Of a stretch of DNA of 64,000 nucleotides, positions 21,795-45,592 are shown one piece after another (the stretch's first letter is position 1; each line of letters opens with the position of its first letter). Source of the stretch: Secundilactobacillus folii (GTDB lineage: Bacteria > Bacillota > Bacilli > Lactobacillales > Lactobacillaceae); the NCBI RefSeq assembly GCF_009720675.1, contig NZ_WNJO01000004.1, positions 1-64,000 of the forward strand, given 5' to 3'. The position numbers were made by a program, and so were the translations under genes. A model generated the notes under the pieces. The model saw only the letters and a program-made list of their open reading frames with translations, was not told the origin of the DNA and made no database searches.

Positions 21795-21913
21795 GTGTGA
21801 AACAAGGCGCTTAAAGACTGGCGTATAAGGAGACCCGGACAGCATTCACGGTGGGTTTTACCGTGAATGCTGTCCGGGTCTCCTTATACATAGGTCTTTG
21901 CCTTGTTGAACAC
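21795..21913. repeat. Long nested palindrome, locus 1 (full unit)
   Basis: Outer arms GTGTGAAACAAGGC (21795-21808) and GCCTTGTTGAACAC (21900-21913), a middle AAAGACT/GGTCTTT pair, and a perfect 30-bp inner stem (21823-21852 with 21860-21889, loop of 7) give one 119-bp hairpin. It begins 2 nt behind the pntB stop. The order of segments and the trailing TAGGTCTTTGCCTTG and CGTTTCGGC motifs match the repeats at 42.4 and 45.4 kb, although the inner stem sequence differs completely. Confidence 0.85.
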
Positions 21914-22015
21914 GTTTCGGCTAGGAGACAGGAACGAATGGACACGAACCTTATTTACGGTTGTTTTTACCGTGAATACGGTTCGTGTCTGCTTATAAAT
22001 AGGTTTCTGCTTTGC
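21914..22015. repeat. Nested palindrome, locus 1 (second half-unit)
   Basis: After GTTTCGGCTAGGAGACAGG, a second hairpin pairs 21941-21961 with 21969-21989 (21 bp, two imperfect pairs). It is followed by the same tail type (TTATAAATAGGTTTCTGC). It lacks the left outer arm, like the half-units at the other two loci. The remaining bases up to 22170 show no feature. Confidence 0.75.
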
Positions 22016-22170
22016 TGATTGTTTAATGGTGAAACAAAAGTTTCAGTAAAGTTAAAACGTGAACCAAATAAAAATTGCGTTCATGTATTTGCATCTGGCT
22101 TTATACTGGGAACTGAAAGTATCTCAAAGAAATATGCAAACGATAAGCAGTTAGCAAAGGAGGTATCCTA

Positions 22171-22567
22171 ATGAAAATTCAATCCCTAGATCACCTAGTT
22201 TTTAACCATCCAAAATATTGCCGATACTGTTCATTTTTACCACGATATATTAGGCATGACCGTCATTCACTTTGAAAATGGCCGGACAGCACTAACTTTT
22301 GGGAAACTGAAACTGAATTTGCATCAAGTAGGACATGAGTTTGAACCTAAAGCCGATTTTCCCACCCCTGGTTCAGAAGATTTTTGCCTGCTTACAGAGA
22401 CGCCGCTGACAACGGTCATCAACGAACTTAAGGCGCAGCACGTGGTAATAGAAGAAGGGCCGGTCATTCGGCACGGCGCGACCGGACTTTTACGCTCAGT
22501 TTATGTACGGGATCCTGACCAGAACTTAGTCGAGATCAGTCAAAAAGAAACTGCTGATAATCAATGA
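22171..22567 (+). pseudogene. Frameshifted VOC/glyoxalase-family gene
   Basis: AAAGGAGG precedes an ATG at 22171 that begins MKIQSLDHLV, the usual start of a vicinal-oxygen-chelate (glyoxalase/bleomycin-resistance fold) protein. The frame fails after a run of five T at 22199-22203. Removing one T gives a continuous reading HLVLTIQNIADTVHFYHDI and on through GMTVIHFENG to the stop at 22567. The conserved metal residues are otherwise present (first His, LNLHQVG, VYVRDPDQNLVEI). The downstream frame alone (from 22256) would make an N-terminally truncated 103-residue protein. This is either a real pseudogene, a slippery-site phase variant, or a sequencing error in a homopolymer. Confidence 0.85.
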
Positions 22568-22659
22568 TTCCGGAGCATTATTGTGATTCTAAGCAGTGAT
22601 TTAATTCTTAGCGTTCGTCAGTAATCGTGCTAATCTTAACAATAAAGGAAGGTGTAATA

Positions 22660-23172
22660 ATGGCAAATGAAAGTATCATCATGCAGCGGCATTCAATTCG
22701 TGATTTTAGTGATCGGCAGGTTGATTCTGATTTGTTGAAAGCAGTTTTTGCTGAAGCACAACGCGCACCATCGGCAATGAATAAGCAGCCTTGGCGTGTA
22801 TATGTGGCTACCGGTGAGGCGACAAAACGAATTAGGCAAGCCCATGCTAAGGCGTCTGATCAGGGTGGAACCGTCTTGTTTAACGCGCCGGTGCTAGTTT
22901 ATATTACGGTGCCAAAAGGTTCGGCAAGCCTGACATACTACGATGCTGGAGCCTTTGGATACAGTGTGTTATTAGCGGCTGTGGACCACGGACTAAGCAG
23001 TATTCCAGCGTATCAGTTCGTTCGCTTCCCCGAAGAAGTTATTAAGGAATTCGATCTTCCCGCAAATGAAGAACTGGCGATGGGCCTTGGTTTGGGTTAT
23101 CCTGCAGCCGATGCGGCCACGGGGAAAACACCACGGTTGCCGCTTGACCAAATTTTAACCGTGCATGAGTAG
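22660..23172 (+). CDS. Nitroreductase-family protein, short form
   Basis: This is a 170-residue FMN-dependent nitroreductase-fold protein. The phosphate-binding RHSIRDFSDR near residue 10, APSAMNKQPWRVYVA, and C-terminal GLGLGYP are present. Compared with its neighbour at 23400 it lacks about 40 residues between AKASDQ and LFNAPVLVYI, a region that forms a helical insertion in the long form. GGAAGGTG lies 6 nt before the ATG. Enzymes of this family reduce nitroaromatics, quinones or flavins with NAD(P)H; the substrate is unknown. Confidence 0.85.
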   Translation: MANESIIMQRHSIRDFSDRQVDSDLLKAVFAEAQRAPSAMNKQPWRVYVATGEATKRIRQAHAKASDQGGTVLFNAPVLVYITVPKGSASLTYYDAGAFGYSVLLAAVDHGLSSIPAYQFVRFPEEVIKEFDLPANEELAMGLGLGYPAADAATGKTPRLPLDQILTVHE

Positions 23173-23251
23173 GGTTGAACTAACAAGTTAACGATTTTTT
23201 CTTTGTGACCCACGTCCAATGGCTTGGATGTTAAATTGGTCAACGAAACTG

Positions 23252-23279
23252 GGCTAAGCTGATTAGGCTTGGCCTTTTT
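23252..23279 (+). terminator. Terminator after the first nitroreductase
   Basis: GGCTAAGC (23252-23259) pairs with GCTTGGCC (23267-23274) with one wobble, followed by five T residues. Confidence 0.75.
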
Positions 23280-23399
23280 GATTCGAGTTCAGGACTGCCA
23301 GCAAACTTCCAAGGGCGCAATCACTCAAGAAGTGTAAACACTTACGCGTAGTTAGTAACAGTGCTAGGTTAGAAAGTGGACTCATTAAGGAGAATGGTT

Positions 23400-24041
23400 A
23401 TGATAGATAATAGCGTACAATTAAAGCGTCGTTCAGCACGTAATTTTAGTGATAAACCAGTGGACCTTGAAGTACTTAAACAAATCATTTCTGAGGCAAC
23501 TCATGCGCCCTCTTGGGAAAACAGTCAACCATGGCAGATCTACTTAGCAGTTGGTGAGACCGCTAAACGCTTACGTCAGCACCACGCCGAGGCAACCAAG
23601 CAGCAGCAAAAAAGTTGGACAGAAGTTATGCCACCGCAAGATTGGGCGCAAAAGCCCAAGGCTAATATTGATCAGTGGGTCAAAAGTATGTCTGCTTTCA
23701 TGGGCAGCGAGGTAAAAGAATTCTCGTCAGCCGGCCCTCAGCTTTTCAATGCCCCGGCGTTGGTTTACATGACAATGCCTAAAGAATCGACGAGTTATTC
23801 TGCGTATGATATTGGCGCTTTGGGCTACGGTATCTTATTGGCAGCTGAAGAACGCGGTATCAGTGGTATTCCGGCCTATGAATTTGTTCGTTATCCCAGT
23901 GAAGTGCGTCAGGAATTTGAAATACCTGAAAATGAAGCCATCTTTATGGGAATTGGGCTTGGGTACCCAACGGCCAAAAAGATGAATACAATGCAGACAA
24001 CTCGTAATTCCATCGATGATATATTGCAAATTCGCGATTAA
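23400..24041 (+). CDS. Nitroreductase-family protein, long form
   Basis: This is a 213-residue nitroreductase paralogous to the gene at 22660. The FMN motif RRSARNFSDK, APSWENSQPWQIYLA, LFNAPALVYMTMP and the closing GIGLGYP align with it, and the middle carries the extra helical segment around SWTEVMPPQDW. AAGGAG is 7 nt before the ATG at 23400; an ATG at 23394 and a GTG at 23376 are in frame but badly spaced. The two genes look like an old tandem duplication with separate transcription, since a terminator lies between them. Confidence 0.87.
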   Translation: MIDNSVQLKRRSARNFSDKPVDLEVLKQIISEATHAPSWENSQPWQIYLAVGETAKRLRQHHAEATKQQQKSWTEVMPPQDWAQKPKANIDQWVKSMSAFMGSEVKEFSSAGPQLFNAPALVYMTMPKESTSYSAYDIGALGYGILLAAEERGISGIPAYEFVRYPSEVRQEFEIPENEAIFMGIGLGYPTAKKMNTMQTTRNSIDDILQIRD

Positions 24042-24083
24042 GTATTCTTAGCCATTTTGGATTAGTTATATTGCCGTTTAAGT

Positions 24084-24260
24084 GAGAGTGGGGCAAAACC
24101 TGGTTTGATCCAAGAATGTGAGCAAAGAGCGCTGCGGATTCCTGGTTTGGAATCTGCAGCGCTCTTTGCTTGATAGCCGGGATCTGAGTTTTGACGCCCG
24201 TTTAGACCACGTCCAGTCTTGGAGGCTAAGGAACGTGTTTAACTACCTCAGCTTCAAGAG
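24084..24260. repeat. Compound palindromic element behind the second nitroreductase
   Basis: The core is a 21-bp stem, GCAAAGAGCGCTGCGGATTCC against its complement, with a single wobble and a 6-nt TGGTTT loop (about 24122-24169). It is framed by partly complementary GGGGCAAAAC and GTTTTGACGCCC arms, then by a second imperfect stem, CTTGGAGGCTAAGG with CCTCAGCTTCAAG. It has no sequence in common with the repeats at 21.8, 42.4 and 45.4 kb but the same nested design. An ORF reading through it (24118-24387) is not credible. Confidence 0.7.
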
Positions 24261-24364
24261 ATTAGTTCAATACTTACCAATGTTAACTTTTTGCCCAGCC
24301 TCCTTTTTATGCGTCAAAATTGTGTTAACCAGTGCCTTAAATTCCATTGTTAAGTACCCTTCGG

Positions 24365-24372
24365 TATATAAT
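24365..24372 (+). promoter_or_regulatory. -10 element of the beta-lactamase-fold gene
   Basis: A perfect TATAAT at 24367-24372 lies 34 nt before the ATG. No convincing -35 hexamer is found at 16-18 nt spacing, so the promoter is only partly supported. Confidence 0.4.
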
Positions 24373-24405
24373 AAAAGTGTCAATTAACTGAGGGGAATGA
24401 TAGCG

Positions 24406-25326
24406 ATGTTAAAGCGACGTGTAAAACGGTTATTGATGTCGGTCATGACAGTTTTGATTTTCTTTGTGGGTGTGGGATCCTTTGGTATCGGTGCATTAGC
24501 GGCGCCAACTTCACAGCAGGTTAAAGCGCAGCAACAAGTGGTTAAAAAGCAACTTCAATCGTATCTAAACAAAGTTAGTCAGGATAAAACGGCAAGCGTG
24601 GCGTTCTATAATCTTGGTGCGCAGTCAGATACAGTCGCTGGTCAAACCGCTTCGGCTCCGTTTTACAAGTCTGGAGCCTTAGCTGTTTATAGTCCAAATG
24701 CGCACAAAACTTACACCAGTGCTAGTACTTATAAATTGTTTATCATTGCTAATATTTGTGCTCGTATTGATGCTGGGACTTTGAATAAGAAGGTACTAAG
24801 GAGTTCAGGCTTTGAACAAATGATTTTGCACAGTCGAAATGAATTTGCAGAAAATTACCTGAAGACTTACGGGGCAGCTAAAGTTAACTTGTTTTTACGA
24901 AAACTAGGTCTCTATTCCTACGTGTTTGCCTCCAATCGAGCAGCACGGACTACCGCTGCATCGCTTTCTTCGATCATGCGGCGGCTGGACCAGGGAAAGT
25001 ATCCCTTTGATAACGCCAGCAATCGTCAGCGGGTTTTGTCGCTCATGCAACGGCAAGTGTATCGCTCGGGAATTCCTAAAGGTGCAGCACAAGCAATGCA
25101 GGGGGCTCGAGCAGCAGATAAGGTGGGGTGGCTGTGGTCGTACAACAACGATGCTGCAATCGTAACTTTACCAAATGGTCAACGTTACGTGCTCGTTGTA
25201 ATGACTCACGGCCATGGTCAGCACGGTTTTAGTGGATTTCCTCGCATCGCAACCATTACTAAAAACGTCCAAAAGATTGTTTATGGCGGAACAACGACTA
25301 GTAAAATACAGTTGTTGTATGAGTAA
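24406..25326 (+). CDS. Secreted beta-lactamase-fold (class A-like) serine hydrolase
   Basis: This 306-residue protein has an N-terminal signal peptide or anchor (basic MLKRRVKRLL then a hydrophobic stretch to ALAAP near residue 34). The active-site set of serine penicillin-recognising enzymes is visible: STYK at about 107-110, SRN as the SxN motif about 30 residues later, and DKVG in place of KTG near residue 240. It probably acts on peptidoglycan or a related substrate outside the cell; true beta-lactamase activity cannot be assumed. GAGGGG fits the ATG at 24406 better than the one at 24397. Confidence 0.8.
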   Translation: MLKRRVKRLLMSVMTVLIFFVGVGSFGIGALAAPTSQQVKAQQQVVKKQLQSYLNKVSQDKTASVAFYNLGAQSDTVAGQTASAPFYKSGALAVYSPNAHKTYTSASTYKLFIIANICARIDAGTLNKKVLRSSGFEQMILHSRNEFAENYLKTYGAAKVNLFLRKLGLYSYVFASNRAARTTAASLSSIMRRLDQGKYPFDNASNRQRVLSLMQRQVYRSGIPKGAAQAMQGARAADKVGWLWSYNNDAAIVTLPNGQRYVLVVMTHGHGQHGFSGFPRIATITKNVQKIVYGGTTTSKIQLLYE

Positions 25327-25362
25327 TTAAAGTTAAAACGACCAGTTATTTAAGATCCAGTC

Positions 25363-25400
25363 AAACGCGGCTTTCTCCAAAAGGAAAAGGCTGCGTTTTT
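25363..25400 (+). terminator. Terminator of the serine hydrolase gene
   Basis: AAACGC-GGC-TTTCTCC pairs imperfectly with GGAAAAGGCTGCGTTT around four A residues, ending in a T run at 25396-25400. Confidence 0.7.
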
Positions 25401-25433
25401 ACGTCTGGAATGAGAATTGATTACTTTTGAAGG

Positions 25434-25997
25434 CTATAGTTCATCTAAATGCTTCAGACCAACTGTCAGCATCCGTTCAAAACTAGCCGTTTCAGCCACT
25501 GTCTCATTTTTAAACCAACCGCTGCCAACATTCAGGATTTCGCCAATCACCAGATTACGAATCATTCGCGAAGCGTTTAGATGCTGTGTTGGTGTAAGTG
25601 ACATGGTATCCAGCAACTGATTCAATAGGTTGCGAATCGACCAGTCGCTGGCATCCGCTTGGTTAGCTTGTAACTGTTCACGAGGGGTGGAAATCACAAA
25701 TTGTGCAATTCGAAAGTGTTCTAGTGAATAGTTTCTGACTGAGATCGCATATCGGATAACAGCTGCCTTACCCGAGATACCGATAAGGGCACTCTGTAAG
25801 AAATTAAAGAGATCGGTACTATACAACTTGGCAATAGCGACGTTTAAAGATTTGACATCTGTAAAATAATTGTACAGCGCTTGTGAACGGGTGCCTAACT
25901 GCTTGCTGATATTAGTGAATGAAAGTGGGATCTGCTCGTTTATTAGTTGCATGGCAGTCCGCACAATTTTTTCAGGGTTTAAAGTTCGACTTGTCAA
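25434..25997 (-). CDS. TetR-family transcriptional repressor
   Basis: This is a 187-residue regulator. The N-terminal TetR helix-turn-helix spans about residues 8-55 (IVRTAMQLINEQIPLSFTNI followed by LGTRSQALYNYFTD), with a variable helical ligand domain after it. The start is TTG at 25997 behind AAGGTGA. It is divergent from a TauE/SafE exporter across 71-89 bp containing two short palindromes, so repression of that exporter, and of itself, is likely. The ligand is presumably related to the exported compound. Confidence 0.82.
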   Translation of the reverse strand: MTSRTLNPEKIVRTAMQLINEQIPLSFTNISKQLGTRSQALYNYFTDVKSLNVAIAKLYSTDLFNFLQSALIGISGKAAVIRYAISVRNYSLEHFRIAQFVISTPREQLQANQADASDWSIRNLLNQLLDTMSLTPTQHLNASRMIRNLVIGEILNVGSGWFKNETVAETASFERMLTVGLKHLDEL

Positions 25998-26014
25998 AAA
26001 ATCACCTTCCAGAC

Positions 26015-26027
26015 TTGTATTTTACAA
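26015..26027. promoter_or_regulatory. Candidate TetR operator 1
   Basis: TTGTA-TTT-TACAA is a perfect 5-3-5 inverted repeat in the short divergent interval between the TetR gene and its exporter neighbour. Confidence 0.45.
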
Positions 26028-26041
26028 TTTATCATTTATAA

Positions 26042-26054
26042 TTACAAGGTGTAA
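26042..26054. promoter_or_regulatory. Candidate TetR operator 2
   Basis: TTACA-AGG-TGTAA is a second perfect 5-3-5 inverted repeat, 14 nt from the first. The arms differ in order from the first site (TTACA against TTGTA), so one of the two may be the true operator. Confidence 0.4.
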
Positions 26055-26068
26055 ATAACTTTTGTGAG

Positions 26069-26821
26069 ATGAAAGAAGTCCTTTTCGTGAATACGATAAT
26101 TTTAGCCGTTGCTGGTGTGGTGATTGGCTTGTTCGTGATTTCTACCGGTGGCGGAGGGGCGGCCTTTTACCTCGGCATTTTAACTGGGGTGTTCAAGCTC
26201 GCCCCCGCCACGGCAGCCGCAACTTCGATTATCACCGCATTACCATCAATTATCATTGGCTCCTGGGGGTATTATCGACAACATTTGATTAATTTTCGAA
26301 TCGGCAACTTAATGTTGATTTCGGCGGTTCCAGCGGTGATTGTCGGGGCCTTGATCTCGCCTTATATACCAGAAACGATTTACCGTTGGATCATCGGGAT
26401 TATCCTAGTACTTTTAGGTGTTCGAATCTTTTTGCAGCGGGGTTCCAGCCGCAAGCCGCAGCACGGTAAAATGCTCGCTATTTTATACGGTATAATGAGC
26501 GGCCTAATGGTTGGGGTCGCTGGCTTGAGCGGTGGCGGTCCGATCATGGCTGGTGCTTTGATCCTTGGTCTGGACACTTTTCACGCGACCGCAACGTCTT
26601 CGTACGTCTTAGTTGGCATGTGCTTTTTAGGCGCCATTCTGCATTTAACCAACGGCAGCGTCGACTGGGCTGCCGGTTTGCCATTGATGTTAGGCGCAAT
26701 CGTTGGTGCAACTATGGCACCGCTGCTGGTAAAGCGGATTTCTCAGTCTAAGCATAATGGCTGGGTGCAGCCGCTGATTGCAGTCTTGCTGATATTTATG
26801 GGGATCAATACGATTCGGTAG
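26069..26821 (+). CDS. TauE/SafE-family membrane exporter, third copy
   Basis: This 250-residue exporter has about eight helices. GLFVISTGGGGAAFYLGILTG near residue 20, ATAAATSIITALPSI, and VGVAGLSGGGPIMAGALILG near residue 150 are the two related halves of the fold. It is clearly divergent from the tandem pair at 4.8-6.5 kb and closer in pattern to the glycine-rich anion exporters. The ATG at 26069 has no good ribosome binding site, while GAAAGAAG stands before the GTG at 26087, so the true start may be 26087. The divergent TetR gene is the likely regulator. Confidence 0.85.
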   Translation: MKEVLFVNTIILAVAGVVIGLFVISTGGGGAAFYLGILTGVFKLAPATAAATSIITALPSIIIGSWGYYRQHLINFRIGNLMLISAVPAVIVGALISPYIPETIYRWIIGIILVLLGVRIFLQRGSSRKPQHGKMLAILYGIMSGLMVGVAGLSGGGPIMAGALILGLDTFHATATSSYVLVGMCFLGAILHLTNGSVDWAAGLPLMLGAIVGATMAPLLVKRISQSKHNGWVQPLIAVLLIFMGINTIR

Positions 26822-26970
26822 TCTTAGGGTCAAAGCTTGAGTGCTGTCGTAGAGCGATGAAAGTTACCGTTTCTAGACCTACAGTTTCAAACGTGATGCA
26901 GACGTCATTTCACACGGGGACGACCTAAAGTCGTATAATGAGAGTATTCTAATCATTAACGGAGGCACAC

Positions 26971-29505
26971 ATGGCAGAATTAAAGCATTTTTACGAGACT
27001 TTTCAACCTAGTCATTATAATTTATACCTTGATATCAACCGGGAAACGAAGCTAATTTCTGGTAAAACGACTATTACTGGGCATGCGAGTGAAACCGATA
27101 TCGCACTCCATCAGAAATACTTAACTGTTTCGTCAGTTGAAGCCGACGATCAAACAGTTGAATTTGACCTTGATCAAAAGGCAGAAGCGATTCGAATTCA
27201 CCTGAATCAGAGTGGCGAGACGACACTGACGGTGACCTATACAGCCCCGTTAACTGACACTATGATGGGTATTTACCCTTCGTACTATGAAGTGAATGGC
27301 GAAAGAAAGCAGATCATTGGCACTCAATTTGAGACGACCTTTGCTCGGCAAGCCTTTCCAAGCATTGACGAACCAGAAGCCAAAGCAACTTTTGATTTAG
27401 CAATTAAATTTGATGAACATCCCGGCGAAACGGTGATTAGCAACATGCCGGAAGTCCGAACAGAAAACGGTGTTCACTACTTTGATACCACCGTCAAAAT
27501 GTCCACGTACCTCATTGCCTTTGCCTTTGGCGAACTGCAAAGTAAACAGACTAAGACAAAGAGTGGTGTGACCGTGGGCGTCTTTGGTACCAAGGCCCAT
27601 CAAGCTAAGGAGCTGGACTTTGCCCTAGACATCGCGAAACGGTCCATCGAGTTTTATGAGGACTTTTACCACACCCCATATCCGTTACCTCATTCGTGGC
27701 AACTAGCACTGCCTGATTTCTCGGCAGGGGCGATGGAAAACTGGGGGCTGGTGACTTATCGGGAAGCCTATCTACTGTTAGATCCTGATAACACTGCGTT
27801 GGAAACAAAGCAGTTAGTCGCGACCGTCATTGCCCACGAACTGGCTCATCAATGGTTTGGTGATTTAGTCACCATGAAGTGGTGGGACGACCTGTGGTTA
27901 AATGAAAGCTTTGCTAACATGATGGAATACGTGGCAGTGGATGCCATTGAACCTGACTGGCACATTTGGGAAATGTTCCAGACCTCTGAGGCCCCGATGG
28001 CTTTAAACCGTGATGCTACGGATGGGGTTCAATCGGTGCACGTCAATGTTGAAGATCCAGCAGAAATTGATGCGATTTTCGATAGTGCGATCGTTTACGC
28101 CAAGGGTGCACGGATGTTAGTGATGGTTCGAGCGCTGATTGGCGATGATGCTTTGCGGCAGGGACTCAAACAATATTTTGCTGCTCACCGATACAGCAAC
28201 GCTACCGGTGCTGATTTATGGTCAGCTCTTGGTGACGCCTCTCATTTAGACGTGGGTGCCATCATGAATTCCTGGCTGGAACAACCGGGTTATCCGGTAG
28301 TTGACGCTAAGGTTGATGATGGTCAACTGGTCTTGACTCAACAGCAATTCTTCATCGGTGATGGTCAGGATCAGAATCGTCGTTGGCAGATCCCACTGAA
28401 CAGTAATGACCCACAGGCACCACTCATTTTCAAGGATGCTAAACTGTCCTTGGGTGATTATAACGATGTACGCCAGCGAATTGGGGAGCCATTCCGCGTG
28501 AACGTGGGGAACAATTCACACTTTATCGTTCACTATGACGAAACGCTTTTAAATGATATTTTGAACCATTTGGACGGCTTAGATGCAATCGCTCAGTTGC
28601 AGTTACTGCAAGATCTGAGACTATTGGCAGAAGGCAGCCGGATCTCCTATGCTAAAGTTGTGCCTCTGCTAAGCCGCTTTGCCAACAGTCAGGCAACCGT
28701 TGTGATCACGGCGCTATACACGATGGCCAATAATCTCAAAAAGTTTGTTACATCAGATTCACCTGAGGAAAAGGCCTTGAAAAATCTGTTTGGTATTTTA
28801 AGCAGCGACCAGGTGACGCGTTTAGGCTGGTTACCAAAGGCTGGCGAATCAAATGACGATCAGTTGGCTCGACCGACAATTTTAAGTGCTGCCCTGTACG
28901 CTCAAAATAGTGAAGCGGTCAAAGCAGCCCACCAAATTTTTACCGATAATAAGGCTCAGTTGGAGACACTATCGGCAGATATTCGTGGATTAGTACTGAC
29001 AAACGAGGTCAAACATTACGGTTCTGAGGCCCTCTTCAATCAACTATTAGAGACCTATCGAAAGACCTCGGATGCCAGTTATAAATCCAGTATTCGTGTT
29101 GCCTTGACTAGTACGCCGGATGCGCAATTAATTGGTAAACTTATCGGTAAGTTCGAAGATGCAGATACCATCAAGCCTCAAGATTTGCGAGGGTGGTACC
29201 GAGGGGTGCTAGCTAATTCACACGGCGAGCAAGCAGCTTGGGACTGGATCCGTAATGATTGGCAGTGGTTGGAAGATACCGTGGGTGGTGACATGGAATT
29301 TGCCACTTACATTACCGTTACGACGGGGATCTTTAAGACACCAGAACGGTTAGCAGAGTTTAAAGCGTTCTTTGAACCAAAGATCAATACGCCGGGTTTG
29401 ACTCGTGAAATCAAGATGGATATTAAGATCGTGACGACGCGGGTAGCCTTGATTGAAGCTGAGAAGACGGCTGTTAATGCAGCGATTGCAAAGGCGGTTC
29501 ATTAA
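26971..29505 (+). CDS. pepN: Aminopeptidase N (M1 family) PepN
   Basis: This 844-residue cytosolic zinc aminopeptidase is the main lysine/arginine-type aminopeptidase of lactic acid bacteria, working in peptide utilisation. The substrate-binding GAMEN (near residue 254), the zinc site HELAHQWFGDLVT with the distal LWLNESFA, and the FARQAFPSIDEPEAKATF segment are all intact. Length is typical. CGGAGG precedes the ATG, and a perfect TATAAT lies about 32 nt upstream, although its -35 partner is unclear. No signal peptide is seen. Confidence 0.96.
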   Translation: MAELKHFYETFQPSHYNLYLDINRETKLISGKTTITGHASETDIALHQKYLTVSSVEADDQTVEFDLDQKAEAIRIHLNQSGETTLTVTYTAPLTDTMMGIYPSYYEVNGERKQIIGTQFETTFARQAFPSIDEPEAKATFDLAIKFDEHPGETVISNMPEVRTENGVHYFDTTVKMSTYLIAFAFGELQSKQTKTKSGVTVGVFGTKAHQAKELDFALDIAKRSIEFYEDFYHTPYPLPHSWQLALPDFSAGAMENWGLVTYREAYLLLDPDNTALETKQLVATVIAHELAHQWFGDLVTMKWWDDLWLNESFANMMEYVAVDAIEPDWHIWEMFQTSEAPMALNRDATDGVQSVHVNVEDPAEIDAIFDSAIVYAKGARMLVMVRALIGDDALRQGLKQYFAAHRYSNATGADLWSALGDASHLDVGAIMNSWLEQPGYPVVDAKVDDGQLVLTQQQFFIGDGQDQNRRWQIPLNSNDPQAPLIFKDAKLSLGDYNDVRQRIGEPFRVNVGNNSHFIVHYDETLLNDILNHLDGLDAIAQLQLLQDLRLLAEGSRISYAKVVPLLSRFANSQATVVITALYTMANNLKKFVTSDSPEEKALKNLFGILSSDQVTRLGWLPKAGESNDDQLARPTILSAALYAQNSEAVKAAHQIFTDNKAQLETLSADIRGLVLTNEVKHYGSEALFNQLLETYRKTSDASYKSSIRVALTSTPDAQLIGKLIGKFEDADTIKPQDLRGWYRGVLANSHGEQAAWDWIRNDWQWLEDTVGGDMEFATYITVTTGIFKTPERLAEFKAFFEPKINTPGLTREIKMDIKIVTTRVALIEAEKTAVNAAIAKAVH

Positions 29506-32963: not shown

Positions 32964-32964
32964 T

Positions 32965-37662: not shown

Positions 37663-37668
37663 TAAGTT

Positions 37669-38613
37669 TTAATCGTCAAAGGTTTTTAGTTTGCCACGAA
37701 AATCATCAATTGTTTCGTAACCCTTATGTGCCATAATTTCCGTTAGTTCTTGTGAAACCCGGTCAAATACCCGGGTACCTTCATAACCAAATTGCGTCCC
37801 AATTTGAACCATTGAAGCGCCACAAAGAATGTGCTCAAAGGCGTCTTGCCCATTTAAAATGCCGCCGGTACCAACAATGCTGATTTCGGGTTTTAAACGT
37901 AAGGCTAAGCCGCGGACGTTGGCCAAGGCGGTTGGTTTTACAGAGATTCCACCGATTCCGCCGAAACCACCTTTTGGCTTGATGACGACTTTTTCAGTTT
38001 CAGGATCGACCACTAGACCATTACCAATACTGTTGATCGTGTTCACAAATGTTAAGGGATATTGATTAAGGATCTCCGCAATTTGATCAAAATGGACGAG
38101 GTCAAAATAGGGTGGTAGTTTGACACCTAATGGTTTAGTGAAGAACTGAAAGACTTCGTTAAGGACGGTATTCACCCGGTCAAAATCGTAGCCAACTTGG
38201 GGCTTTCCCGGGACATTCGGGCAGGATAGGTTAAGTTCTACAAAGCCGTTAAAGTTAGAATCTTGCACCTGGTGCAGCATGGCAAGGTTATCTTCTAAAC
38301 TAGTCCCTGCTACTGAAAGAAAGTTAGTGCTATCAGGACGTTTTTGCTCGTCTTCCACCACATAGTTCAAATAATAATCTAAGCCGTTGTTGGGCAGCCC
38401 CATTGAATTAATGCTGCCAAGGTGCAGTTCATGCATCCGCGGAGCCGGATTTCCTGCTCGTTTATGCGGTGTGGCGCTCTTGGTCACGTAGGCGCCCGCC
38501 TTCGATGCCACGAGGGCGTCTAAATCTTTATTTGTTTGGCAACGAATGCCGGCTGCATTCATCATGCAGTTGTCAAAATGTCGTCCGCCAATGGTCGTTT
38601 CTAAAGTAATCAT
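37669..38613 (-). CDS. pyrD: Dihydroorotate dehydrogenase, class 1A (fumarate type)
   Basis: This 314-residue cytosolic FMN enzyme oxidises dihydroorotate to orotate in pyrimidine synthesis, using fumarate in class 1A. MNAAGIRC near residue 19, the catalytic-cysteine loop [12 protein letters not shown] near residue 131, [13 protein letters not shown] and GGFGGIGG are all characteristic of the class. The ATG at 38613 follows GGGAGC; the TTG just upstream is less likely. It is separated from the other pyrimidine genes of the window and shows no PyrR motif in its own leader. Confidence 0.95.
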
Positions 38614-38785
38614 CAAATGTCAGCTCCCTGTCTGATTTTATTTGCTGTTCAATTGCCGTTAACTGTACAGGAAAATGTGGAGGTCGTCAAGGTGAAAATA
38701 CGGCGGATAAGCAAGCTGTATTTTGCCAAAAACGGTGCTAGAACTGGTATGATAGAAGTTAAATAAACGCGAGGAGGATTCACAT

Positions 38786-39193
38786 TTGAGCGAAAATAAG
38801 GACGTCAGCTTAAAACTGGGTGACGAGAAATTTACTGAAATGATGCTGTTTTTAAAAACGCCCATCAATCAGCAAAACCACAGAGATTATAAATTTGACG
38901 ATGCGGAACTGCGTGAGTTGCAGCCAGGAATCTGGGCGATGCCAGCCTACTTAAAAGAGGGTGATGCATACAGCCTCTTTTTCCTGTTTACGACGATTGA
39001 TACGGGCGATATGGTAGTGGCCTTTGCGGAGGGTGAACCCCTTGAGAAGCGATTGGCATTGGGCAAACCGATGACTACTGGGGCTGGCTTGAACAGCTTA
39101 TTTGCCCAGCAGGAGAAGCGCGCCCAACGTGTGTTGAAATTTTTAAATGATATTTCGCGGGCGGATGAAGCAGAATGGCGACAAATTATTTAA
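38786..39193 (+). CDS. Conserved-looking hypothetical protein, TTG start
   Basis: This is a 135-residue soluble protein that I do not recognise. It has no signal peptide or helix long enough for a membrane. GAGGAGG at 38771-38777 lies 8 nt before the TTG, leaving little doubt about the start. Divergent from pyrD and upstream of the pyrP leader. The hydrophobic core AYSLFFLFTTIDTGDMVVAF suggests a compact alpha/beta fold. Confidence 0.6.
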   Translation: MSENKDVSLKLGDEKFTEMMLFLKTPINQQNHRDYKFDDAELRELQPGIWAMPAYLKEGDAYSLFFLFTTIDTGDMVVAFAEGEPLEKRLALGKPMTTGAGLNSLFAQQEKRAQRVLKFLNDISRADEAEWRQII

Positions 39194-39248
39194 TTGCTCA
39201 ACGTTGATTTGCTCCGGACTTAAAGTCTTTTAATTGCTGTAGATTATC

Positions 39249-39277
39249 TTGACACGGTTACTAAACTTACCTATACT
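39249..39277 (+). promoter_or_regulatory. Promoter of the PyrR-controlled permease operon
   Basis: TTGACA (39249-39254) and TATACT (39272-39277) are separated by exactly 17 nt, close to the consensus. Transcription should start about 39284. Confidence 0.8.
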
Positions 39278-39283
39278 CAAAAT

Positions 39284-39386
39284 TAAATAACAACCTTTTA
39301 ACTTAGTCCCGTGAGGCTAATAAGGGGTCGGTGCTGGCGACAGCTGCAAACGACACCTCTATACCTGCGGGCATAGGGGTGTTTTT
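39284..39386 (+). promoter_or_regulatory. PyrR attenuator leader of the uracil permease
   Basis: AGTCCCGTGAGGCT at 39305-39318 matches the PyrR-binding pattern ARUCCNGNGAGGYU at every position. It is followed by a terminator stem: ACACCTCTAT (39353-39362) with ATAGGGGTGT (39373-39382) and a T run to 39386. PyrR bound with UMP would favour the terminator, lowering permease expression when pyrimidines are plentiful. Confidence 0.9.
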
Positions 39387-39407
39387 ACGTTGAATAAGGA
39401 GGAAATC

Positions 39408-40691
39408 ATGGCAAAACAAACGCGTTACCGTAATCCGGATGCGGTTTTGGACATTTGGGAACGGCCATCCTTCATGCAGTGGGTTGGCTTATCGATTCAG
39501 CACTTATTTTCAATGTTTGGTTCAACGGTTTTAGTGCCCATTCTAGTTGGCTTAAATCCTGGTATTGCGCTCTTTAGTTCGGGTGTTGGGACACTGATGT
39601 ATATCTTGATCACCAAGGGCAAGATTCCCGCTTATATGGGTTCCAGTTTTTCGTTTATCGTGGTCATGCAAAGTCTGATGAAGCAGGCTGGCTATCCGTC
39701 GATTGCTCAAGGAACCCTGGCCGTTGGTGTGGTTTATCTGATCGTGAGTGTTTTAGTTTCATTGATTGGTTCCGACTGGATCGATAAGGCGTTACCGCCG
39801 ATCGTTGTCGGACCAATCATTATGGTGATTGGGTTATCACTAGCTGGTAGTGCCGCCACGAACGCTACGATGGTTTCCGGTCACTACAGTTTAGTGTCCT
39901 TTGCCATTGCCATGGCAACCCTGCTCATTACCGTTTTCTTTAACATGTTTTTGAAGGGCTTTTTGGGCCTGATCCCTATTTTGCTGGGAATCGTCTGCGG
40001 TTACATTTTTGCAGTGCTGGCTGGGGTCGTGGACTTTGGCCCGGTCATGTCGGCACCCTGGTTTAAACTACCGGCTTTTGAAATTCCAATTTTAAGCTAT
40101 CCCTTGACTTGGCATATTGATGCCATCTTGAGCATGGCTCCAATTGCATTTGTCACGATGACTGAACACATGGGACACATCATGGTGCTTAATAAATTAA
40201 CGCACCGAAACTTCTTCAAGGATCCGGGCTTAAACCATACTCTAGCTGGGGATGGAACGGCATCGATCATTGCCAGTTTAGTTGGTGGCCCGCCAATTAC
40301 TAGTTATGGTGAAAATATTGGTGTGCTGGCGATTACCCGGGTTCATTCGGTCTATATGCTTGGTGGAGCAGCACTCTTTGCGGTGCTCTTCTCCTTCATT
40401 GGTAAGTTAAGTGCACTGATTGAAAGTATTCCGTCACCAGTGATTGGTGGGATCAGTTTTCTCTTGTTTGGTGTGATTGCTTCTAGCGGGCTGCGAGTTC
40501 TCGTTGATAATCACATCGATTTTAACGAAAAACGGAACCTCATCATTTCCGCCACAATTTTGGTCATTGGGATTGGAAATGCAACTTTACAGATTGGCGG
40601 TTTAACCTTTTCTGGTTTGTCGATCGTCACGGTGCTTGGAATCGTTTTGAATCTGATCCTACCAAAGCACGCTGTCAACGAAGCAGATTAG
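39408..40691 (+). CDS. pyrP: Uracil permease (NCS2 family)
   Basis: This is a 427-residue NCS2 nucleobase transporter with about 12-14 membrane segments. SIQHLFSMFGSTVLVPILVG near residue 25, the QHL-type start, and the substrate motif GGPPITSYGENIGVLAIT near residue 290 identify the uracil branch. The PyrR attenuator in front agrees with uracil as substrate. AAGGAGG places the start at ATG 39408, while the TTG at 39390 lies inside the leader. A second permease follows 12 nt later in the same transcript. Confidence 0.93.
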   Translation: MAKQTRYRNPDAVLDIWERPSFMQWVGLSIQHLFSMFGSTVLVPILVGLNPGIALFSSGVGTLMYILITKGKIPAYMGSSFSFIVVMQSLMKQAGYPSIAQGTLAVGVVYLIVSVLVSLIGSDWIDKALPPIVVGPIIMVIGLSLAGSAATNATMVSGHYSLVSFAIAMATLLITVFFNMFLKGFLGLIPILLGIVCGYIFAVLAGVVDFGPVMSAPWFKLPAFEIPILSYPLTWHIDAILSMAPIAFVTMTEHMGHIMVLNKLTHRNFFKDPGLNHTLAGDGTASIIASLVGGPPITSYGENIGVLAITRVHSVYMLGGAALFAVLFSFIGKLSALIESIPSPVIGGISFLLFGVIASSGLRVLVDNHIDFNEKRNLIISATILVIGIGNATLQIGGLTFSGLSIVTVLGIVLNLILPKHAVNEAD

Positions 40692-40703
40692 GAGATGTGA
40701 AAA

Positions 40704-42065
40704 TTGGCTAAGAATGGTTTAGGGCAAGTGCCAGCAATTCCTATGGCTTCTCGGCACATGTCGTACTGGGATATGTTTGCAACGTGGGTTGGTGCTAATG
40801 CCAATAATGGAACTTGGTATATCGGTGGTGTGATTGCCGCCTGTGGTTTTCTAACAGCTTCAACTACGCTGATCATTTCAGGAATCGTTTCATACTTATT
40901 GCTGGCAGCCGCAAGCTTTATGGGCTATAAGACTGGTTTGACGGCAATGACTCTGACCCGGGCATCGTTTGGCCTGCGGGGCAGTTTGTTACCTTCAGTC
41001 ATTAATTTAGTGCAATTTATTGGCTGGGCGGCTGTAAACACGTTTATTGCGGCAACTTCCATGAGCTTTCTATTTCATGACCTCTTTGGTTGGCCAGTGT
41101 TTGGCAAACCAGGTGGCACGATGGGTCTAGCCGTGGGCATCTTCGTCATGAGTATTTTTCATCTGCTCAGTATTTCGCTTGGGCAGCGTTCGGTGCAGAT
41201 GATCGAACGAATCGGGATCGTCTTAGTTTTCATTTTCGTTATCTGGGAATCGATCGTCGTTTTTAAAACTGTTTCGTTTCATCAAATTGTGACCTGGCGT
41301 GCTCCCCGAAATTTGCGGATGACACCGGGAGCAGCGATTGATGTTTTAGCTGCCTTCAACTTGGCTTGGGTCACTGCGGCAAGTGACTTTTCGAGATTCA
41401 CTGGGGTCCGCAAAAACGCGACTCAAGCATCATTTTTGGGTGCGAATCTTGGGCTGTTTTGGTTTGCATTTATCGGTGTCATCGCAACGATTGGGACAGC
41501 CATCACCCTTAATCACTTCGACCCCAACAATTCTGACCCCAGTACGATTGCCAGTAAGCTGGGTCTTGGCTTCTTAGCAATGATTGTCATCATTTTAACT
41601 AGTACTACGGCAAATGCAGTTAATTTGATGTCTGCAGGATCTGCTCTAACGAATATGACCCGGCGATTAAGTTTGACCGTCAGTTTATGGGTTGTGACGT
41701 TGGTTGCAACAGCGGTGACGTTTCTACCGATTTTTGTGGCTTCGTTCTTAACGGTTTTCACGGCCTTTCTAGATGGAATTGGCATGGTGCTAGGTCCAGA
41801 GATTGGTATTTTTCTGGTTGATTTCTTCTGGCTACGTAAGCAACGTTATGAGATTGAGGACTTCACCAAGGTGCATGGTCAGTATTGGTATCGCGGTGGG
41901 GTCAACTGGATCGCGATTTTTGTCTGGGCGGTTTCGGTGGCCTGCTATATTGGTTTGAAGCATGTGCCAATGGTTGCAGATACGATTGGGGCGACTTTCG
42001 TGGTGATTTTGATCAGCATGATTTTATACGGACTGCTAATGAATTTCGCACAAAAGAGGGCTTAA
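40704..42065 (+). CDS. NCS1-family cytosine/pyrimidine permease
   Basis: This is a 453-residue NCS1 transporter with 12 helices. DMFATWVGANANNGTWYIGG near residue 22 is the family helix 1 pattern, and TRASFGLRGS, IGWAAVNTFIAA and ALVKMMTII-opposed helices complete the fold. It is expressed with pyrP under the PyrR leader, so cytosine or a related pyrimidine precursor is the likely substrate; other NCS1 members carry hydroxymethylpyrimidine or allantoin. The start is TTG at 40704, placed after AGGAGATG; the next ATG (40743) would cut the N-terminus. Confidence 0.85.
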   Translation: MAKNGLGQVPAIPMASRHMSYWDMFATWVGANANNGTWYIGGVIAACGFLTASTTLIISGIVSYLLLAAASFMGYKTGLTAMTLTRASFGLRGSLLPSVINLVQFIGWAAVNTFIAATSMSFLFHDLFGWPVFGKPGGTMGLAVGIFVMSIFHLLSISLGQRSVQMIERIGIVLVFIFVIWESIVVFKTVSFHQIVTWRAPRNLRMTPGAAIDVLAAFNLAWVTAASDFSRFTGVRKNATQASFLGANLGLFWFAFIGVIATIGTAITLNHFDPNNSDPSTIASKLGLGFLAMIVIILTSTTANAVNLMSAGSALTNMTRRLSLTVSLWVVTLVATAVTFLPIFVASFLTVFTAFLDGIGMVLGPEIGIFLVDFFWLRKQRYEIEDFTKVHGQYWYRGGVNWIAIFVWAVSVACYIGLKHVPMVADTIGATFVVILISMILYGLLMNFAQKRA

Positions 42066-42334
42066 TCTGTTCCCAAGTGCGGTTGATAATGTTATTCTTA
42101 CAGTAGTGGTAGGCACGATTGGCTAATACTGGAAATACTTTTGAAGTTTGTCTTTAAATGTAGTTTGATAAACGTCGCTAGTCGCTAAACTTGACAAATA
42201 TGCCATGGATGGCGCTTCAATGCGCTTTGAGTGCTCAGTGTAAGCTGAGCCAGTAATCGTATTCTGATTGACGGGTAAGTGAAAATTAAGAAATTGATTT
42301 TCTCAGTGCTAGCCAGTCAACCTACTACTAGGGA

Positions 42335-42365
42335 AGCCCTGCCAGATTAAACTGGTGGGGTTTTT
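42335..42365 (+). terminator. Terminator of the permease operon
   Basis: AGCCCTGCCAG pairs with CTGGTGGGG around ATTAAA and ends in five T residues, 270 nt after the stop. A small additional stem (GCTCAG with CTGAGC) lies at 42233-42250. Confidence 0.8.
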
Positions 42366-42372
42366 CAGTAGA

Positions 42373-42483
42373 GCGCAAAGCAAGGCGTTAAGAGACCGGC
42401 GTAGAAGGCCCTAATAGCGAAAACCCCGGGTTTGGGTTTTGGCTATTAGGGCCTTCTACATAGGTCTCTGCCTTGCTTTGCGC
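42373..42483. repeat. Long nested palindrome, locus 2 (full unit)
   Basis: Four nested arms pair almost perfectly: GCGCAAAGCAAGGC with GCCTTGCTTTGCGC (outer 14 bp), AGAGACC with GGTCTCT, an 18-bp stem 42401-42418 with 42442-42459, and AAAACCC with GGGTTTT around a 7-nt loop. The whole folds to a 111-nt hairpin. Confidence 0.88.
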
Positions 42484-42676
42484 GTTTCGGCTATATAAAA
42501 GGCAACCACGCCGAAAACCCCGGGTTTGGGTTTTGGCTATTCGGGCCTTCTACATAGGTCTCTGCCTTGCTTTGCGCGTTTCGGCAATATAAAAGGCAAC
42601 CATGCCGAAAACCCCGGGTTTGGGTTTTGGCTATTAGGGCCTTCTACATCGGTCTCTGCCTTACTTTGCGCGTTTC
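42484..42676. repeat. Two tandem half-units, 94-bp period
   Basis: The right half of the locus 2 palindrome, from the CCGAAAACCCC loop to GCGCGTTTCG, is repeated twice more. The TTTGCGCGTT landmarks stand at 42477, 42571 and 42665, an exact 94-bp period. Copies differ at few bases (for example TATTCGGG against TATTAGGG). The half-units lack the left outer and inner arms, so they pair only in competition with the first copy's right half. Confidence 0.85.
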
Positions 42677-43027
42677 GAGACAGGACCCTGGAGTCTCTCT
42701 AAAGTAATAATCAAAAGAAGTAAATCATTTAAAAGCGACCCAAGGATAATTCAATCAAGTTAGTAGCTAATACTTCAATTAAATTGGTATTCTTTGTGAA
42801 TTTCCACAAATATTTCATGCTATAAAGGCGATTATTACCTGTTAAATGATGCTTTTATAAAATGTGAAATTAATTTTGCATGACGCTTTCATTCCTGAAA
42901 TATCAACCCCATAAAATTAGAAAGCTCTTAATGAAATTATTAGGATATTTTTGAAGGATTTTGGTAGACTTTCGCGCTTATTCGCGTTAAGATATCAAAA
43001 TCTTGTGAAATAAAAGGGGTGGAACAA
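42677..43027. other. Gene-free AT-rich interval
   Basis: About 350 bp with no credible ORF. It ends in the ribosome binding site of the acetyltransferase gene. I see no clear promoter pair or repeat in it beyond the tail of the preceding repeat array. Confidence 0.5.
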
Positions 43028-43573
43028 ATGTATTTACGTCGCGCAGAAATGAAAGATTTATCACAAATCGAATCAATCATCCAGGATGGCAAAAAGCACC
43101 TGGCGGCTCAACACATTGATCAATGGCAGGGGGGATACCCGAATACCAACGTGCTGGTGGACGATATTCAAAACGGCCACACGATGGTCCTTGTCGAAGG
43201 CTATGAAGTTTTAGGGACGGCTGCGGTCATTCCAGCACCGGACGAAAGCTATCAAGTCATTGATGGTGAGTGGCTGACGCGTGGTGATAATTACGTTGCC
43301 ATCCACCGAGTTGCTGTATCAGCAAATCACCGTGGCCAAGGCCTTTCAGGCAAGTTGTTTGCGGCTATCTTTAAAGAAATTGAAGAACACTCTTCAGTCA
43401 AAGGTATCCGAATTGATACGCATCCTGATAATAAGGGCATGCAGCACGTCATTAAAAAGTCTGGTTTCACTTCAACAGGCACTGTTGAAGTACTGGCCGA
43501 TGAACAAACTTCAGTTCACGATTTTGCTTATGAAAAGCTGACTAGGGCAGGTTCATTAGTAAACGCACAGTAA
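43028..43573 (+). CDS. GNAT-family N-acetyltransferase
   Basis: This is a 181-residue GCN5-related acetyltransferase. The acetyl-CoA motif is YVAIHRVAVSANHRGQGLSGKL near residue 92, followed by IRIDTHPDNKGMQHVIKKSGF as motif B. The N-terminal RRAEMKDLSQIESI is the usual first strand and helix. AAAAGGGGTGG supports the ATG at 43028. The gene is monocistronic with a long terminator; the acceptor is unknown. Confidence 0.88.
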   Translation: MYLRRAEMKDLSQIESIIQDGKKHLAAQHIDQWQGGYPNTNVLVDDIQNGHTMVLVEGYEVLGTAAVIPAPDESYQVIDGEWLTRGDNYVAIHRVAVSANHRGQGLSGKLFAAIFKEIEEHSSVKGIRIDTHPDNKGMQHVIKKSGFTSTGTVEVLADEQTSVHDFAYEKLTRAGSLVNAQ

Positions 43574-43615
43574 CTGACTTTGATAATCTTAAAAAACGCA
43601 TTGCATTAAAATTTT

Positions 43616-43681
43616 GATAAAATAAGCCATTGGCAAATGAAATCTCAGTTGGGAGGTCGTTTGTCAATGGCTTATTTTAAT
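43616..43681. terminator. Long terminator hairpin after the acetyltransferase
   Basis: AAAATAAGCCATTG-G-CAAA pairs with TTTG-T-CAATGGCTTATTTT over about 20 bp, with a T run on the right and an A run on the left, so it can stop both strands. Confidence 0.85.
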
Positions 43682-43789
43682 TTTACAAAGGTGACTTCAC
43701 AGCTGTTAAAAGATTTTAATTTGTAATGCCTAACTCGCTAGCACAATTCCCCTAAAAATGCGATAATGGATGCGCTAGGAGGAATTGGT

Positions 43790-44722
43790 ATGGCAGACAG
43801 CAAAGAAATGACAGGTAAAAAATTCTTCTCGGTCACAATGTTGAATGCTGGTATTACGCTGGTGGAAGCAATTGGTGGCATATTTTCCGGCAGTTTATCG
43901 TTGGTTTCAGACGCCTTTCACAACCTTGGTGACACCTTTTCCATTGTAATCAGCTACATTGCCCACCGAATTAGTCAACGTGATGAAGATGAACGCAATA
44001 CGTTTGGCTATGGTCGAGCTCAAATTTTAGCCGCCATGTTGAACGCTCTTTTGCTGATCGTACTATCCGTTTTTTTGGTGGTTGAAGCTGCCAAACGGCT
44101 GAGTCACCCGGAGACCATCAACGGCGAATTGATGATGGTAGTCGCGGTGATTGGTCTAGCTGCCAATTTAGCCTCCGCTATTTTGATGCATCGCGGTGCC
44201 AAACATAACATGAATATGAAAGCAACGTACTTGCATCTACTGAGTGATACATTATCATCAGTTGGTGTTATCTTCGGTGCGCTGATGATTCAGTGGTACA
44301 ATGTTACCATGATTGACCCGATTATTACGATTATCGTTGCAATCTACATTACTTTTGAATCTTGGCCAATTGTGCGCAATTCCATCACGATTTTAATGCA
44401 GGGTGCGCCACAGATGGATTATGATGCGATCAAGGCTGATTTAATGTCGATTGACGGTATCACCAACGTCCATCACATTCACATTTGGATGATTGATGAG
44501 AATCGGATCATGTTTTCAGCCCACATTAACATGCGCGATATGTTACTGAGTGAAGCGGAACCGATTTACCGTCAAATTGAACGATTGCTGGCCACGAAGT
44601 ACGGTATTTGTCACGTGACCCTTCAGGCAGAGGACGTGCGTGGACGTGATGAGGACATGATTTTGAATGAGGACTTGGAACAGCAATTAAAGACTAGGCA
44701 ACAGGGAAATAGCAAGGAGTAA
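43790..44722 (+). CDS. CDF-family metal cation efflux protein
   Basis: This is a 310-residue cation diffusion facilitator with six helices and a C-terminal cytosolic domain. The metal site residues in SDAFHNLGD (helix 2) and HLLSDTLSSVGV (helix 5) are present, and VHHIHIWMIDEN is the conserved C-domain motif. The H/D pattern suits zinc, cobalt or manganese. AGGAGG precedes the ATG at 43790. The gene 7 nt downstream encodes a DtxR/MntR-type sensor, so the metal may be manganese or iron; that is inference. Confidence 0.9.
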   Translation: MADSKEMTGKKFFSVTMLNAGITLVEAIGGIFSGSLSLVSDAFHNLGDTFSIVISYIAHRISQRDEDERNTFGYGRAQILAAMLNALLLIVLSVFLVVEAAKRLSHPETINGELMMVVAVIGLAANLASAILMHRGAKHNMNMKATYLHLLSDTLSSVGVIFGALMIQWYNVTMIDPIITIIVAIYITFESWPIVRNSITILMQGAPQMDYDAIKADLMSIDGITNVHHIHIWMIDENRIMFSAHINMRDMLLSEAEPIYRQIERLLATKYGICHVTLQAEDVRGRDEDMILNEDLEQQLKTRQQGNSKE

Positions 44723-44729
44723 GATAAGT

Positions 44730-45377
44730 ATGACCCCAATGAAAGAGGATTATTTAAAAATTATCTTCGAACTCGGTGGCACGAGTGAGAAAGTATCAAA
44801 TAAACAGATCGCCATCAGTTTAAACATTGCGGCGGGCTCGGTAACAGAAATGATTAATAAAATGGCTGAAGAGGGCTTAGTCGTTCACGAACCGTACGCG
44901 GGAATTTCGCTAACGTCAACGGGACGTGATTTAGCAGTTACACTGGTTCGCAAGCATCGACTATGGGAAACTTTTTTGGTTAAAAAGCTCAATTTTGCTT
45001 TACCAGATTTGGATGTAGAAGCTGAAAAGTTGGAACACGTGACGAGTGAGAAGTTGGCAAATGCCTTGGATGACGCTTTGAATCATCCAAAAAAGTGTCC
45101 GCATGGCGGCACAATTCCAGATCGTCATGGAAAGTTTGCCGGCGAATCTCATTTGATTTTAAATGACGTGAAGGACGGTCAAACGGTCACGGTGGCAAGG
45201 TTTATTGATAATCATGATTTGTTAACATATCTCGGTGATATTAAGTTGGATATTGGTGATAAGTTAACGGTTAATAAGCATGATCCGTTTGAGGGACCGG
45301 TACTGGTCACGAACCTAACGGATGATCAGGATCTGACGATTGGGTATAAGGCAGCGCATTATATATTTGTAGACTAG
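44730..45377 (+). CDS. DtxR/MntR-family metal-dependent regulator
   Basis: This is a 215-residue regulator in three parts: winged helix-turn-helix (residues 1-60, ISLNIAAGSVTEMINKMAEEGL), a metal-binding dimerisation domain with RKHRLWETF, LEHVTSEK and CPHGGTIP as the likely Mn/Fe ligands, and a C-terminal SH3-like domain from about residue 145. The longer form with the third domain resembles IdeR/SloR more than the short Bacillus MntR. It is expected to sense manganese or iron. It follows the CDF gene by 7 nt. A nested palindrome starts 1 nt after the stop and probably ends the transcript. Confidence 0.87.
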   Translation: MTPMKEDYLKIIFELGGTSEKVSNKQIAISLNIAAGSVTEMINKMAEEGLVVHEPYAGISLTSTGRDLAVTLVRKHRLWETFLVKKLNFALPDLDVEAEKLEHVTSEKLANALDDALNHPKKCPHGGTIPDRHGKFAGESHLILNDVKDGQTVTVARFIDNHDLLTYLGDIKLDIGDKLTVNKHDPFEGPVLVTNLTDDQDLTIGYKAAHYIFVD

Positions 45378-45378
45378 A

Positions 45379-45489
45379 GCGCAAAGCAAGGCGGTTAAAG
45401 ACCGGCGTAGAAGGCCCCAATAGCGAAAACCCCGGGTTTGGGTTTTGGCTATTGGGGCCTTCTACATAGGTCTTTGCCTTGCGGAGCGC
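45379..45489. repeat. Long nested palindrome, locus 3 (full unit)
   Basis: This has the same architecture as locus 2: outer GCGCAAAGCAAGGC with GCCTTGCGGAGCGC (mismatched in the middle three columns), AAAGACC with GGTCTTT, and an 18-bp inner stem. Compared with locus 2, the inner stem reads CCCCAATAGC with GCTATTGGGG instead of CCCTAATAGC with GCTATTAGGG, a paired change; the AGAGACC/GGTCTCT arm has changed to AAAGACC/GGTCTTT in step. Confidence 0.87.
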
Positions 45490-45592
45490 GTTTCGGCTAG
45501 ATGACAGGCAACCACAGGAAAACCCCGGGTTTGGGTTTTGGCTATTGGGGCCTTCTACATAGGTCTTTGCCTTGCGGAGCGCGTTTCGGCAG
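45490..45592. repeat. Nested palindrome, locus 3 (one half-unit)
   Basis: A second right half, GGAAAACCCCGGGTTTGGG and onward to GCGCGTTTCGGC, follows the full unit with one copy only. It carries the same variant bases (ATTGGGG, TCTTTGCCTTGCGGAGC) as the full unit before it, so the two halves have been kept alike within this locus. Confidence 0.82.

Follow-up and report, generated by a model that had tools for sequence, protein, structure and literature searches.

Dispersed palindromic repeats, among them EFAR (Enterococcus faecalis repeats, a miniature element reportedly published by Venditti et al. in 2007), are the closest described counterparts of the element analysed here, a nested hairpin found at three loci, W1, W2 and W3, of a 64,000-nucleotide stretch of the Secundilactobacillus folii genome (the window: contig NZ_WNJO01000004.1, positions 1 to 64,000). 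EFAR is about 170 bp long, consists of two stem-loops and inserts into a small stem-loop that is partly retained; neither anchoring to stop codons nor an order-wide range belongs, to our knowledge, to its description. REPs go together with RAYT proteins, while ERIC and Correia are sequence-conserved families, for which we know of no order-wide covariation. Passages of PMC3733652 give REPs a length of 20–40 bp, place the GTAG REPs near the 3' ends of open reading frames (ORFs), to which they supply the TAG, and mention EFAR once; REPs within 15 nt of a stop codon stall ribosomes, according to a part of PMC5082802 citing Liang 2015. In passages of PMC10969869, ERIC and Correia (NEMIS) are palindromic, co-transcribed with genes and cleaved by RNases, ERIC being also found at gene 3' ends; EFAR is not mentioned in those passages, nor in passages of PMC12207403, a Term-seq report on 13 species including E. 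faecalis. Efa-1, a 163 bp pair of adjacent stem-loops in a section of PMC2267715, is probably EFAR.

On balance, we favour the view that the window element represents an EFAR/REP-like dispersed, non-coding palindromic element of the Lactobacillales, kept as an RNA hairpin in the 3' untranslated region (UTR) and presumably functional there. Its structure and its placement at stop codons are strongly supported.

The nested hairpin and selection on its fold

The original prediction of one nested-palindrome design at 21795-22015, 42373-42676 and 45379-45592 is borne out by sequence, repeats and folds, and can be refined: each locus holds one complete hairpin of about 124–133 nt on the + strand and, behind it, partial tandem units, which duplicate the right half of the hairpin together with a linker at a spacing of 93–109 nt. 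From the outside inwards, the common architecture comprises a 4-bp outer stem, a 7-bp stem, a short 5' stretch without a paired counterpart (frequently GTTTA or GGTTA), a 6-bp stem, a small asymmetric loop and an inner stem of roughly 26 bp, whose letters vary freely. Element length falls within a narrow range. Copies in the S. folii genome start with NAGAG or NAAGG; the 3' end is CGTTT, or CGATT in one subfamily, and the 3' tail is GTTTC in all three window copies and GTTTC or GATTC in most S. folii copies inspected. The two sides of the asymmetric internal loop (for instance 45404-45406 with 45466-45468) seem by eye to change together, outside the standard pairs, with matched versions such as GGCG/CATAG, GGAG/TGCAG and AGAA/TGGCC.

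W1 (21791..21922, + strand; covariance model match of 140 bits) opens with a TAG that is the stop codon of ORF 20378-21793, and is followed by a second, partial unit with its own compensated stem (21923..22018, +), recognized by an inverted pair and by a direct repeat, 21941-22018, 77% identical to 21832-21909. W2 (42369..42492, +; 132.6 bits) starts immediately 3' of a terminator U-tract and continues into two partial tandem units with a 94 nt period (42493..42676, +), with direct repeats at 42418, 42512 and 42606, 81–97% identical to the first. The opening TAG of W3 (45375..45498, +; 137.4 bits) is the stop codon of ORF 44730-45377; its second, partial unit (45499..45590, +) is marked by an identical 73 nt repeat at 45518-45590. 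Folded alone, with a few flanking bases included, the complete hairpins of W1, W2 and W3 reach -87.2, -86.3 and -77.7 kcal/mol, and the wider loci are far more stable than their dinucleotide shuffles (folding z = -16.6, -7.1 and -7.3 for loci 1, 2 and 3). In the lowest-energy fold of the whole locus 2, the partner of the left arm is the right arm of unit three rather than the nearest one. W2 and W3 are 94% alike, and the paired base changes first noticed between them are real. The inner stem of locus 1, in contrast, had been held to be unrelated, which it is not: its apex (ATTCACGGTGGG...) is similar to that of other copies in the S. folii genome.

A first covariance model was built from ten S. 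folii copies, in which 96.7% of cells pair and both sides change at 26 of 43 pairs; in none of 500 shuffles did pairing, the two-sided changes or the covariation score come up to the observed values, and 5 of 500 matched the number of further pair types. For a second model, made of 31 copies from mostly divergent genomes, the corresponding figures are 90.6% and 41 of 43 pairs, with 0 of 500 shuffles as high. Slid partners pair at 31–50%. Over 155 distinct copies (three identical ones were removed from the A3 set before this count), the model pairs include 5817 Watson-Crick, 368 G-U, 53 A-C and 332 other combinations. Arm-to-arm alignment, with all mismatches scored alike, gives G-U in excess of A-C in 58 of 62 S. 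folii copies (the reverse in 0), 86 of 93 copies from relatives (reverse in 3), 19 of 20 from other Lactobacillaceae genera (reverse in 1) and 17 of 24 from other families (reverse in 2), a count which takes in the fixed internal loops, the model-based one being cleaner; single loci under 3050 nt were skipped here, as in the further placement sets described below.

The excess of G-U over A-C indicates, therefore, that the + strand is selected as a folded single strand, and its strand bias speaks against both a DNA cruciform and copying from arm to arm, neither of which predicts one. Selection on the fold, originally proposed to act on RNA or on a DNA cruciform, is thus supported by covariation, in the form of a folded single + strand, while the cruciform is disfavoured. 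Given the orientation of the copies and their position at stop codons, RNA is more likely than single-stranded DNA to be the selected form.

Pairing appears to have been built step by step. In comparisons between copies, whose swap and change-rate counts are non-independent since the compared pairs share copies, S. folii elements at least 93% identical feature 2 two-sided Watson-Crick swaps against 22 one-sided changes (12 of them to or from G-U), and those of relatives, at the same identity, 1 against 5. Two-sided changes rise with divergence, to 13 against 44 one-sided at 88–93% and 147 against 262 at 80–88%. Since one-sided changes dominate among near-identical copies, pairing evolves stepwise; in every bin the rate of change is lower for paired than for unpaired columns, from 0.030 against 0.066 in the closest to 0.139 against 0.172 at 80–88%.

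Range of the family and placement at stop codons

The first model produced 123 matches in the S. folii genome at E<=0.01, of which 77 on the sense strand, in 41 places, antisense matches to the same palindromes having been dropped by hand before sense-strand copies were counted. Many of these copies lie in head-to-tail arrays, abutting or nearly so. All 14 congeners have matches, 35 to 83 in twelve of them (with at most 83 candidates scored) and 4 and 1 in the remaining two, or 7 and 2 once more candidates were scored; these figures, like those given below for genomes of other genera, include antisense matches. In a sample of the order, where just eight candidates of each genome were scored, the second model matched 129 of 395 genomes and 41 of 80 genera at E<=1e-5; in a sample of the phylum, with 17 candidates scored per genome, it matched none of 198 other genomes, of which the 20 listed all come from the same class or phylum. 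Another 12 genera are represented by sixteen genomes picked for having matches, with 5 to 110 in each, and the copies inspected from other genera keep the same structural plan. The covariance-model search of the genome and its relatives, put forward with the original prediction as a way to test it, has thus brought further copies and covariation in many related genomes, and the prediction survives it. One family is known from a single genome, G139, whose copy (L251/L058) is the same as one of G007, with the same flanks where inspected; this identity across two families may be due to contamination or shared mobile DNA.

An exact-pattern scan of the named genomes gave no match, nor did BLASTN of W2 against plasmids and phages; matches in plasmids and phages were found by BLASTN with copies from other genera, one of which had none. 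Copies are present in 117 plasmid records, 94 of them from Enterococcus. The plasmid records NZ_CP151545.1 and CP069369.1, attributed to Pseudomonas aeruginosa and Klebsiella pneumoniae, match an enterococcal copy at 73–80% and are possibly mis-assigned, and the records labelled as Enterococcus or Listeria phage in which the element occurs (L382-L384, H141-H160) appear to be contigs of bacterial hosts.

Placement was evaluated against ORFs of at least 90 codons, by asking whether the 5' edge of an array falls at -4..+5 of a co-oriented stop codon. This is true for 67 of 118 arrays, compared to 1.04% of intergenic positions; a single array begins at +6..+30, and in the reverse orientation no array adjoins a stop (two of 120 arrays, on loci under 3000 nt, were excluded from this main set). 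Further sets gave 9 of 22 for named Secundilactobacillus, which overlaps the main set, 9 of 36 for other named Lactobacillaceae, 7 of 20 for additional genera of that family and 11 of 26 for other families. Of one batch of 80 matches, 70 entered the placement sets; the rest were low-scoring, partial or antisense, apart from one complete match lying at the edge of locus L331. The null lies at 0.9–1.5% across sets, and reverse-orientation abutment was seen in none of four sets and once among the 26 arrays of other families. Stop-adjacent arrays feature TAG as the stop codon more often than background stops do (32 of 67 against 145 of 528, p 0.001), and both outer stems have their 5' strands within the first 16 or so nt after the stop.

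W2 is placed differently, behind a conserved non-coding stretch lying outside the element and ending in an intrinsic terminator (42083..42366, +, its start set by eye). This stretch, which has a promoter-like start, as judged by eye, in addition to its own terminator, and for which no credible Rfam match was obtained, was found by nhmmer in 52 of 80 named Lactobacillaceae loci, and is about 96% identical over some 220 nt, counted by eye, between genomes G006 and G012. An element begins at -3..+21 of its end in 18 of the 52 loci: 7 of 12 in Secundilactobacillus, 4 of 28 in Levilactobacillus plus one metagenome-assembled genome, 7 of 11 in Lactiplantibacillus plus one such genome, and 0 of 1 in Pediococcus. 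The paired letters of these elements differ widely among genera. Elsewhere in the window, a lysine riboswitch lies at 50961-51138 and a cluster of eight tRNA genes at 55631-56346.

Possible role, spread and rival explanations

If the element is kept as a 3'-UTR hairpin, it would come first among the structures of the 3' UTR in the transcript of the upstream gene, where it might block 3'-5' exonucleases and help to set the 3' end of the mRNA. Full closure of the hairpin would occur only after the terminating ribosome leaves, being delayed because the ribosome would cover the 5' side of the outer stems. A bolder proposal, which we hold to be unlikely, is that of an order-wide RNA element positioned by translation: the footprint of a terminating ribosome would take in its 5' edge, the outer stems would close as a signal that the ribosome has left, and this closure would determine what becomes of the message 3' end. 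Such an element would spread without a transposase of the known single-stranded DNA or RNA-copying type. With dozens of copies in each of many lactic-acid bacterial genomes, the family makes up a large, little-described share of 3' UTRs. It is unusual for an element to be tied closely to the stop codon while its letters vary freely and its fold stays fixed; this constraint makes the role of palindromic repeats at gene ends directly testable with covariance models and 3'-end maps, and in bacteria that are harmless and food-associated.

Several observations weigh against the 3'-UTR hairpin. As many as 51 of the 118 arrays lie away from any stop codon that was recognised, and in 28 of the 118 the closest ORF on the upstream side faces the opposite way. 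An intrinsic terminator immediately precedes 8 of the 51 (control, 262 of 9000 positions), and several others, judged by eye, are found at the end of short ORFs below the 90-codon cut-off. Among 11 readable orthologues of the W1 gene, its own included and G007 left out, the element is found only in the window genome, and it lies behind only 3 of 14 orthologues of the W3 gene, whose protein is 75–91% identical in 13 named Secundilactobacillus relatives; therefore, no single gene needs it. Finally, no clean empty site was found among plasmid loci, E. faecalis contigs or sites of the Lactiplantibacillus group, and recent transposition is thus not demonstrated. Two 'empty' sites of the latter group resemble decayed relics of the left end of the element, and the G006 and G012 stretches, overlapping over only about 40 kb, share one site, which is filled.

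The main rival, which we regard as possible, if rather doubtful, sees in the folded strand a single-stranded DNA substrate of transposition or recombination machinery, such as REPs are for RAYT, or attC sites, of no gain to the host and with stop codons as safe or targeted sites. It would fit the head-to-tail arrays of abutting or near-abutting copies, the narrow length range and the presence on 117 plasmid records, and hairpins of single-stranded DNA also tolerate G-T better than A-C. Like copies, moreover, cluster within genomes: for 76 of 127 copies (62 of the 127 come from S. folii), the closest relative sits at a different locus within that genome, with 33 expected after label shuffling, which points to a probable dispersal of the element. 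Insertion alone, however, would not be expected to leave copies at stops in sense orientation only, 67 to 0 in the main set. PF01797 (Y1 transposase) has no match in the S. folii genome, nor in 7 of 14 congeners, other transposase families not having been searched, and PF00078 (reverse transcriptase) has none in S. folii and matches in 3 of 15 genomes of the genus; for lack of a match in the element's own genome, both a Y1/RAYT partner and spread by reverse transcription were rejected.

The element might instead be a transcription terminator in its own right, replacing ordinary ones. Orthologues of the W1 and W3 genes devoid of the element usually have, by eye, an ordinary terminator after the stop, and a crude finder detected a canonical terminator downstream of 7 of 44 arrays adjoining a stop, compared with 70 of 232 control stops (Fisher p 0.066), a terminator loss downstream of elements which is suggestive only. 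An intrinsic terminator, however, is a hairpin followed by a U-tract, and the GTTTC or GATTC tail makes a poor one; a second, terminator-like hairpin follows 5 of 6 plasmid copies inspected, with a clear T-run in two, and W2 already sits behind a terminator. Because of the poor U-tract and of the terminator-like hairpins adjoining other copies, a pure terminator role is less likely, and we consider it decidedly improbable. Even less credit, close to none, is given to the idea that replication template switching (quasipalindrome correction), rather than selection, keeps the palindromes perfect: this would account for long stems of unrelated letters being nearly perfect in many copies, but not for a G-U excess on one strand, for one-sided changes preceding two-sided ones, or for asymmetric loops retained at the same places.

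Relation to known families

At the three loci, no Rfam 15 family scored above its curated threshold, sub-curated matches being the only ones, and none of the titles and abstract openings examined in the literature names a family with such a layout in Lactobacillus. Five sequence strings from E. faecalis-type copies had no match in the papers searched, and one string of another text search was found only in an unrelated virus paper. The initial impression that no named family has this layout holds for Rfam at the loci, but is weakened by the E. faecalis copies, which fit the two-stem-loop, 170 bp description of EFAR: those on plasmids and host-like contigs combine a hairpin of about 120 nt with a second one of about 50 nt, reaching about 170 bp or slightly more. 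Shortened and interrupted forms are also found in E. faecalis, as at 11170-11360 and 20390-20800 of L383, where copies have collapsed to a short hairpin or are interrupted by other modules. Short terminator hairpins beginning AGAG..GACAAAAG may likewise be collapsed elements. Integron attC sites were set aside without a test, the elements following ordinary chromosomal genes.

The family shares with EFAR a palindromic nature, dispersal and the same bacterial order. The window copies differ in being one complete hairpin each, made of other letters and devoid of the second, terminator-like hairpin, and S. folii copies occur also in head-to-tail arrays. We therefore file the family as EFAR-like rather than as EFAR, the comparison being with the general description of EFAR. 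As far as the passages cited above describe them, GTAG REPs and BIMEs are similar in their many copies, their placement at ORF 3' ends and the use of the element's TAG as a stop codon, whereas the window elements are 124–132 nt long, carry no GTAG tag and have no Y1 transposase match in their own genome. ERIC and Correia (NEMIS), within the same limits, are comparable as palindromic miniature elements, found, in the case of ERIC, at gene 3' ends. Compared to these known relatives, the present family is far wider in range and is anchored to stop codons.

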